Below are positions 41,043 to 43,462 of a stretch of DNA of 64,000 nt, in pieces. Every line of letters starts with the position of its first letter. Within the stretch, counting starts at the first letter, position 1. This DNA is from a bacterium (GTDB taxonomy: Bacteria > Campylobacterota > Campylobacteria > Campylobacterales > Sulfurovaceae): assembly GCA_018822805.1 (NCBI GenBank), contig JAHJJU010000014.1, positions 1 through 64,000 on the forward strand, written 5' to 3'. The notes under the pieces are model-generated. The model saw only the letters and a list, made by a program, of their open reading frames with translations, ran no database searches and had not been told where the DNA came from. The position numbers and the translations under genes are program-made.

Positions 41043-42347
41043 TTACTTCTTTTTAGCATTCTCTTTTTTTCGTCTCTCTTGTTCACTTTTTGAGGCTTCT
41101 CTCTTTTTCTTTTGGGCAGCATAAGTAAATTTACGTTTTTTATCGTAGTCGATAAAACCTTTTTTCTCACGCAGTGTCTTTTTCATTGGTTGTCGTTGTC
41201 TTGGTTGTCGGTCTTCAAGTTCAAAACCTTCATAAATTTCTCTCTTGATGTTTAATCGTAAATCTTTTTCTATTTTTGAAAAAGCGTTGTAGTCATGAAT
41301 GGTTAAGAGTGAAACCACACTCCCTTTATGGTTGGCTCGTCCTGTTCGACCTACTCGGTGGGTAAAGTCATCGGTTCCTTCAGGCAACTCATAATTTATA
41401 ACCCAAGGTAACTCTTGAATGTCAATACCTCTAGCAGCAATATCGGTTGCCACCAAAACTTGCATCTGTCCCGACTTTAACAGTGCCAATGCTTTGGCTC
41501 GAACACTGCGTTTAATATCTCCATGAATAATTGCCACACGAATGTTTTGACTTTTTAAATACTCGTAAATCTTATTGGCAGATACTTTAGAACTGGCAAA
41601 AAGAAGTACCTGCTCCATAGTAAGGTCTTCTAGCAGCTTAAGAACCAAAGCATCTTTTTTCTTTACATCAATTTTATAAGCACGATGAGCAATAAAATCA
41701 ACCACATCACGCCTGTCACTCACTTCAACAATAGCCGGTTCTCGTAAAAACTCTTTTCCCAATCGTTTAATGTTTTGAGAAATGGTCGCAGAGAACATCA
41801 TGATTTGTCGGGGTTTTCCACACTCTTTTAATATGGCTTTTATTTCATTTAAAAAACCAAGTTCCAACATGGTATCGGCTTCATCAAGAACAATGGTATT
41901 GATGTACGATAAATTGATTTTTTTATCACGTATAAAGTCTTGTAGTCGCCCTGGAGTTGCCACCACAATGTCGGCACCATGTGAAAGTTTTTCAAGTTGA
42001 ATACTCTTTGGTGTTCCTCCTTGAACTTTGACCGTTCTAAGATCCAAATGCTTCCCAAATGAAATAATACTACGTGATACTTGGTCACACAGTTCAATGG
42101 TTGGGACAATTACCAAAGCTCTTAGAACTTTATTGTCCTCTTTGGCTATTTTTTGGAGTTTGTTCAAAATAGGGAGAACGTATGCAGCTGTTTTACCTGT
42201 ACCCGACTTCGATGCCCCGATAATATCTACCCCTTTTAAAGCTAAAGGAATAACTTTTTTCTGTATGGCAGTTATCTGTTCATATTTTGCACTGTCGATG
42301 GCTTTTAAAATGTCCGGATGTAAATTAAGTTTTTCAAATGGTTTGAT
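41043..42347 (-). CDS. DEAD-box RNA helicase without a canonical start codon
   Basis: ATP-dependent RNA unwinding, probably in ribosome assembly or cold adaptation. The full set of motifs is present: Q motif near YEQITAIQKK, Walker A ASKSGTGKT, PTIELCDQ (Ia), TPGR, DEAD, SAT, then the second RecA domain with IIHGD, VATDIAARGID and HRVGRTGR, and a basic tail. Motifs Q and I lie upstream of the first in-frame ATG/GTG/TTG (TTG 42167), so translation must begin earlier. The frame is open to a TAA at 42411 and has no ATG, GTG or TTG in that interval. ATC 42347, 6 nt after AAAGGA, is the best candidate and gives 434 residues. A sequencing error is the other explanation. Confidence 0.85.
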   Translation of the reverse strand: MKPFEKLNLHPDILKAIDSAKYEQITAIQKKVIPLALKGVDIIGASKSGTGKTAAYVLPILNKLQKIAKEDNKVLRALVIVPTIELCDQVSRSIISFGKHLDLRTVKVQGGTPKSIQLEKLSHGADIVVATPGRLQDFIRDKKINLSYINTIVLDEADTMLELGFLNEIKAILKECGKPRQIMMFSATISQNIKRLGKEFLREPAIVEVSDRRDVVDFIAHRAYKIDVKKKDALVLKLLEDLTMEQVLLFASSKVSANKIYEYLKSQNIRVAIIHGDIKRSVRAKALALLKSGQMQVLVATDIAARGIDIQELPWVINYELPEGTDDFTHRVGRTGRANHKGSVVSLLTIHDYNAFSKIEKDLRLNIKREIYEGFELEDRQPRQRQPMKKTLREKKGFIDYDKKRKFTYAAQKKKREASKSEQERRKKENAKKK

Positions 42348-42433
42348 GGTGGTTCCTTTGGAGCATATGAAGTCTACAATGATGAATTCATATCTATATA
42401 GTGGGTGACATTATATCAGAAAGGAGATTTATC

Positions 42434-42502: not shown

Positions 42503-43462
42503 CTACATACGCTCTGGCATTTCGTCTTTAAATGCCATTTTTTCAGCTTTTGAAAGAATTTTCATGGCACCTTCTTTCATCATCACTTCAGCCAATAAGT
42601 TACCAAGTTGAGAACATGAACTTCGTGAAGCACCAATTTTCTTTTCTAAAATTTTCGAACCGTCAGGAAAACCGATCATCGAATTAATATAAACAATATT
42701 CTTATCAACGGTTACATTAACAGCCACCGGTGCTGAACAACCTGCTCCAATTTTATCAATAAAATCACGTTCTAATGTTGAACATAAAAAGGTATCTTCA
42801 TCATTTAAAACTTTGACAATCTCACGCACTTTATCGTTAGAACTAACAATTTGAATTCCCAAAGCAGCTTGTCCCATAGGTGGAATCATAATAGAGAGAG
42901 GTAACTTTTCCGTAAAGGGAACATCTTTTAAAAGATCCAAACGATCCAAACCAATATAAGCTAAAATAATCGCATCGTATTGACCTTCAGCCAATTTTCT
43001 TAGACGGGTATTAACATTCCCTCTAAGATCTTTAACTTTTAAATCAGGTCGTACCGAAAGCAGTTGCATTCGTCGTCGTAAACTGGTTGTTCCAACCACA
43101 GCACCCTTTGGTAAATCATGAAAAGAGTTGTAGGTATGAGAGAGAAAAACATCCGACTGATCTTGACGCTCGGTAATGGCTGCCAACTCTAAACCCTCTG
43201 GCATATAGGTCGGTACATCTTTTAATGAATGTACAGCCAAGTCAGCATTGCCTGCCAACATCTCATCTTCTAACTCTTTGGTAAAGTGCCCTTTACCACC
43301 GATGAGTGCTAGAGGTTTGTCTAAAACCTTATCACCATTAGAGGTAATTTTATTTAACTCAACTCTGATGTTAGGAAACGCTGCTTCAATTCTATCTTTT
43401 ACATGATAGGCTTGCCAAAGTGCAAGATCACTTGCTCGGGTTGCTATGATTAATTTATCCAA
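42503..43462 (-). CDS. hemC: porphobilinogen deaminase
   Basis: 319 residues. Links four porphobilinogens into hydroxymethylbilane in heme synthesis. IATRASDLALWQA at the start, KDVPTYMPEGL, TTSLRRRMQLLSVRPDL with the arginines that bind the growing chain, and the cofactor cysteine in IGAGCSAPVAV. Last gene of the hemA-side cluster. Confidence 0.97.
   Translation of the reverse strand: MDKLIIATRASDLALWQAYHVKDRIEAAFPNIRVELNKITSNGDKVLDKPLALIGGKGHFTKELEDEMLAGNADLAVHSLKDVPTYMPEGLELAAITERQDQSDVFLSHTYNSFHDLPKGAVVGTTSLRRRMQLLSVRPDLKVKDLRGNVNTRLRKLAEGQYDAIILAYIGLDRLDLLKDVPFTEKLPLSIMIPPMGQAALGIQIVSSNDKVREIVKVLNDEDTFLCSTLERDFIDKIGAGCSAPVAVNVTVDKNIVYINSMIGFPDGSKILEKKIGASRSSCSQLGNLLAEVMMKEGAMKILSKAEKMAFKDEMPERM

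Follow-up and report, generated by a model that had tools for sequence, protein, structure and literature searches.

Comparison with relatives strongly supports the conclusion that a gene for a DEAD-box RNA helicase in the window, by which we mean the whole stretch of 64,000 nucleotides analyzed here, has no ordinary start codon and begins at AUC. An AUH start (AUU, AUC, or AUA) is kept at this gene across three families of one order, as shown by comparing the sequences of 106 distinct orthologues. The features on which the argument turns are the following, in window coordinates.

41043..42347, minus strand: coding sequence of the DEAD-box RNA helicase, 434 codons from ATC 42347 to TAA 41045-41043; Pfam PF00270 and PF00271; 106 orthologues start at the same position; pN/pS 0.20 in codons 2-17.
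42345..42347, minus strand: predicted ATC initiation codon (AUH class); ATC, ATT, or ATA in 106/106 orthologues, all in one clade; third base A, C, or T throughout, with at least 19 changes.
42354..42359, minus strand: Shine-Dalgarno sequence (SD) AAAGGA, 6 nt before the ATC; AAGGA at −11 to −7 nearly invariant in 106 orthologues, every one with its AGG 6-8 nt from the codon.
42189..42215, minus strand: motif I of the helicase (ASKSGTGKT), encoded before the first canonical start; columns K47-K52, invariant in alignment A1.
42410..42415, minus strand: TATAAT, a possible −10 element on weak evidence; read from the sequence, with TATAAT within 120 nt upstream in 76/106 orthologues.

The helicase frame is open on the minus strand from 42410 to its TAA and is limited upstream by an in-frame TAA at 42413-42411. 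An earlier sequence-only reading of this DNA had claimed that no ATG, GTG, or TTG lies between that upstream stop and TTG 42167, that motif I is encoded upstream of this TTG, and that AAAGGA stands 6 nt before the ATC; re-reading the frame bore out all three, and the TTG, the first canonical codon, is codon 61 counted from the ATC. Read from the ATC, the protein has 434 residues with both domains complete, DEAD at residues 26-195 (158 bits) and Helicase_C at residues 231-339 (101 bits; both over the cut-off), and keeps the Walker A, DEAD, SAT, and HRxGRxGR motifs that mark a DEAD-box RNA helicase (alignment A1). Among the 52 non-overlapping frames of at least 100 amino acids surveyed in the window, this one alone would lose conserved motifs if read from its first canonical codon and also has an ATH codon with an SD upstream. 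We could not assign it to a named subfamily (RhlE, DbpA, CshA, SrmB, RhlB, or DeaD), as no curated NCBIfam equivalog cut-off was reached; the best scores were 355 bits for RhlE, against a cut-off of 743, and 346 for DbpA, against 524. In motif Ia, encoded at 42090-42107 of the window (VPTIEL), PTIEL is found in 53 of the 55 orthologues of at least 62% identity, and the canonical Arg (PTREL) is kept in all 51 more distant orthologues.

In a first search of 60 related genomes, the orthologues found within the genus were 71-89% identical and a single one from another family of the order was 47% identical; wherever the 5′ end was intact, the codon aligned with the window ATC was ATC, ATT, or ATA. 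A profile built from 15 orthologues was run over 399 genomes of the order, where orthologues scored at least 504 bits and other DEAD-box proteins at most 433. Orthologues are present in Sulfurovaceae, Arcobacteraceae, and a third family (coded f1, f8, and f14), with named GTDB records that include Sulfurovum/Sulfurovaceae, Arcobacter, Malaciobacter, Aliarcobacter, Halarcobacter, and others, and a phylum-wide sample of 397 genomes yielded no family beyond these three at E <= 1e-140. Their distribution is patchy (16 of the 34 genomes of the genus at E <= 1e-150). Removal of duplicates left the 106 distinct orthologues, many from metagenome bins, whose relatedness inflates the counts.

The sequence-only reading had placed the ATC where relatives start and proposed looking at this codon in them, for ATG or for ATC/ATT. 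All 106 orthologues have an AUH codon at the corresponding position (ATC in 69, ATA in 21, ATT in 16) and none has ATG, GTG, or TTG; in L105 and L146 the site has moved upstream, by three codons and one codon, respectively. The AGG of the SD is exactly 7 nt from the AUH codon in 93 orthologues, and an SD match of at least 5 nt is present in 101 of the 106 versus 10 of 31 paralogues (p = 6.5e-13, not corrected for relatedness). A canonical codon occurs within 20 codons upstream in seven orthologues, accompanied by an SD in none. Of the order's paralogues we compared 32, many of which share a genome with an orthologue: 31 have ATG, GTG, or TTG at the aligned start (GTG or TTG in L205, L206, L208, and L216) and the remaining one has an ATG four codons upstream. 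The helicase therefore has what defines a conserved AUH-start gene: AUU, AUC, or AUA at the initiation position with no usable canonical start in 106/106, an SD at initiation spacing, and coding constraint from the AUH codon. Pyrimidines occupy −2 and −1 before the AUH in most orthologues (42348-42349 in the window), and G is scarce between the SD and the start; where −1 is a U, the initiator tRNA might pair over a longer stretch. In some ATG-started paralogues of the same genus (L027, L020, and L024), the SD and the ATG are 9-11 nt apart; L027 also has, one codon before its ATG and at ideal SD spacing, an ATT placed like the start of the AUH group, an arrangement that is a possible hint of how the AUH start originated.

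That the AUH codon is the start follows from the in-frame stops that lie within six codons upstream of it in 57/106 orthologues and from the step in pN/pS, which is 0.20 in codons 2-17 versus 0.87 in the preceding part of the frame. The profile of base conservation is level until about −12, picks out AAGGA at −11 to −7 and the pyrimidines at −2/−1, and is codon-periodic from the AUH on. An internal Ile codon of a longer protein is excluded by the upstream stops and by codon usage. A start elsewhere, either upstream through frameshifting or coupling or at a downstream canonical codon giving a shorter protein, could draw on a short out-of-frame ATG reading frame that spans the window start (−19 to +14) and on 47 out-of-frame overlapping frames among the 106 relatives. 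These frames, however, share no start, frame, or end, so initiation by frameshift or from an overlapping ORF was rejected; no SD-linked canonical codon lies upstream, conserved coding begins exactly at the AUH, and downstream canonical codons are found at scattered positions, with three SD-like cases. Translational coupling was also rejected, both as a hidden route of initiation and as the reason for the AUH start, because gene order around the helicase is not conserved and the upstream neighbors differ between relatives. Taken as a whole, a start elsewhere is very improbable. An error of sequencing or assembly that turned ATG into ATC might be suspected in a window genome that is a draft of 121 contigs, but the AUH recurs in all 106 distinct sequences, several of which come from named cultured strains (e.g., Malaciobacter halophilus DSM 18005 and Aliarcobacter vitoriensis CECT 9230) and one from Sulfurovum sp. 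AR, and the chance of such an error is negligible. The two routes by which the sequence-only reading said it could fall, a correction to ATG and relatives with an upstream ATG, both fail across the 106 orthologues, and on this comparison we regard sequencing error, a hidden upstream start, and frameshifting as refuted. In the window, the upstream neighbor is hemC (42503-43462), whose product is porphobilinogen deaminase according to Pfam and whose frame has TTG as its first canonical start.

On a tree inferred by a quick method under a simple model, with a long-branch warning where the paralogues join, all 106 orthologues form one clade against the paralogues (SH-aLRT 99). At least 19 third-base changes of the start codon, all between A, C, and T and none to G, are counted on this tree. 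ATC is used by 69 of the 106 orthologues versus 21 expected from internal Ile codons. For a neutral third base with fourfold-site composition, the absence of G has a P of about 0.03-0.11, and by itself it is weak evidence of selection; in neutral simulations on the tree, the ATC excess had a P of at most 0.005, and the excess together with the absence of G arose in 0 of 400 runs per setting. An ancestral AUH might nonetheless be a frozen accident with no function of its own, kept by drift or because its loss needs a matched change elsewhere, which would agree with the single origin on the tree and with the neutral P for the absence of G alone. Against this, G is absent despite the repeated changes of the third base, neutrality does not predict the ATC excess, and a single A-to-G transition would yield the generally preferred AUG, so we consider a frozen accident improbable. 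A strong SD is paired here with a start codon of the rejected class, GUG and UUG being absent throughout, and this pairing suggests that the codon class, and not just a low level of expression, matters.

Little besides the SD and the start codon seems to be left to regulate, given a short and unstructured leader. Most of the TATAAT copies end 25-40 nt before the start, and judging from their position the leader is probably about 25 nt long in most relatives; the window copy ends 63 nt upstream of the ATC and was not called by the promoter scan. The mean folding z of the leader is +0.5 and an Rfam search of the window gave no match there, on which grounds a structured leader or riboswitch was rejected. 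The strict site AAGGA-N4-YY-ATH-AA, a pattern blind to AUH starts with other spacing, has 8 matches in the 2.79-Mb window genome (G000) and 16 in a closed 2.0-Mb relative (G043), about as many as a reversed-pattern control, and in these two genomes no gene other than the helicase has it as its start; a wider regulon with the same site was therefore rejected. A match in thrS of G043 is internal to this gene, which probably starts at a TTG further upstream.

IF3 discriminates against AUU, AUC, and AUA and accepts AUG, GUG, and UUG (PMC4611024), and in a reconstituted system AUU read by the initiator anticodon CAU is disfavored as IF3 rises (PMC10158994). Since AUH is the class that IF3 discriminates against, a link to this factor is reasonable, and by analogy with infC or pcnB we think it most likely, though far from assured, that translation of the helicase is gated at its start codon by the initiation machinery. 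Selection would maintain a weak start codon and so hold initiation within the IF3-rejected class. The strong SD would recruit 30S subunits, and the stringency of start-codon proof-reading would decide whether they commit: more helicase would be made under loose proof-reading (low IF3 per 30S, or 30S that is immature or cold-stressed) and less under tight proof-reading. RhlE, SrmB, DbpA, and CshA, relatives of the helicase about which more is known, act in ribosome assembly and RNA turnover, and for this reason the likely purpose would be a supply of helicase matched to the state of the initiation machinery; by the same analogy, this helicase may have a role in ribosome assembly.

Alternatively, too much of the helicase might be harmful, and the AUH might simply hold its level low and constant, without regulation, the role proposed for the AUU of E. 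coli pcnB. We rank this plain down-tuning second, as a serious but less likely explanation. Selection for a weak start would account for the absence of AUG, and S. aureus reporters with non-canonical starts gave about 10% of AUG expression, and one of the three genes showed no effect of the medium (PMC13009471). Expression could be lowered equally well by a weaker SD or by GUG/UUG, yet the SD is unusually strong and GUG and UUG, which IF3 accepts, are never found at the helicase start in the 106 genes, though such starts are used by paralogues and by infC. Start-codon gating thus remains our preferred reading. It is conceivable, although unlikely, that the AUH start is moreover the sensor of a homeostatic loop, in which immature or IF3-poor 30S subunits would initiate loosely, more helicase would be made, and the helicase would help to finish or recycle these subunits and thereby shut off its own synthesis. 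If true, an RNA helicase, and not infC, would have come under IF3-type start-codon control. The infC gene, which encodes IF3, is known for an AUU or AUA start with autoregulation. The sequence-only reading had invoked this gene as a model; the AUH start of the helicase stands, but the infC start in these genomes is TTG rather than ATT. At the infC loci of Sulfurovaceae and Arcobacteraceae (L173-L201; L182 in the window genome), the TTG is one codon after an in-frame stop in most cases, and UUG appears to be the conserved start. Autoregulation by IF3 of an AUU-started infC may thus be weaker or different here.

To our knowledge, only a handful of bacterial chromosomal genes use AUU, AUC, or AUA starts, and few are conserved this deeply. 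Our search of open-access papers found no earlier report of an AUH-started helicase, and the present gene adds an RNA helicase to the list in two well-sampled families (Sulfurovaceae and Arcobacteraceae) and a third. The weak start probably meters the amount of helicase made. The 106 start sites, with a fixed SD, a third base of A, C, or U, and G absent, are a natural series usable for testing IF3 discrimination. Gene callers restricted to ATG, GTG, and TTG would truncate the helicase, often past the Q and ATP-binding motifs.

In its DEAD and Helicase_C domains, motif set, and size, the protein resembles RhlE, CshA, DbpA, and SrmB, but it falls below every curated equivalog cut-off and its clade is separate from the canonical-start paralogues of the order. 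Conserved or fixed AUH starts are known for infC, pcnB, ccpN, cvfC1, rnhC, and Borrelia pncA (PMC13009471, PMC13068326, PMC13398362). Listeria rnhC (ATC) and infC (ATT) (PMC13068326) and Borrelia pncA (AUU), the last with the same kind of database truncation (PMC13398362), likewise have a fixed start, but they are other genes in other phyla, conserved at the species level or as one gene only. Staphylococcal ccpN (AUA) and cvfC1 (AUU) share a conserved non-canonical start with a strong SD (PMC13009471); these are Firmicutes genes, neither a helicase, and their proof is ribosome profiling whereas ours is sequence comparison. E. coli pcnB, encoding poly(A) polymerase I, is described in that paper, citing Binns and Masters 2002, as starting at AUU, and on this secondhand account it too is an RNA-metabolism enzyme limited by an inefficient start; the enzyme is unrelated, and in the helicase the third base of the start can be A, C, or T across the three families. 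The helicase has in common with infC an AUH start that is conserved across species, discriminated by IF3, and located on a gene of the translation or RNA machinery; here, unlike there, AUH control would sit on a helicase, and infC itself starts with TTG.
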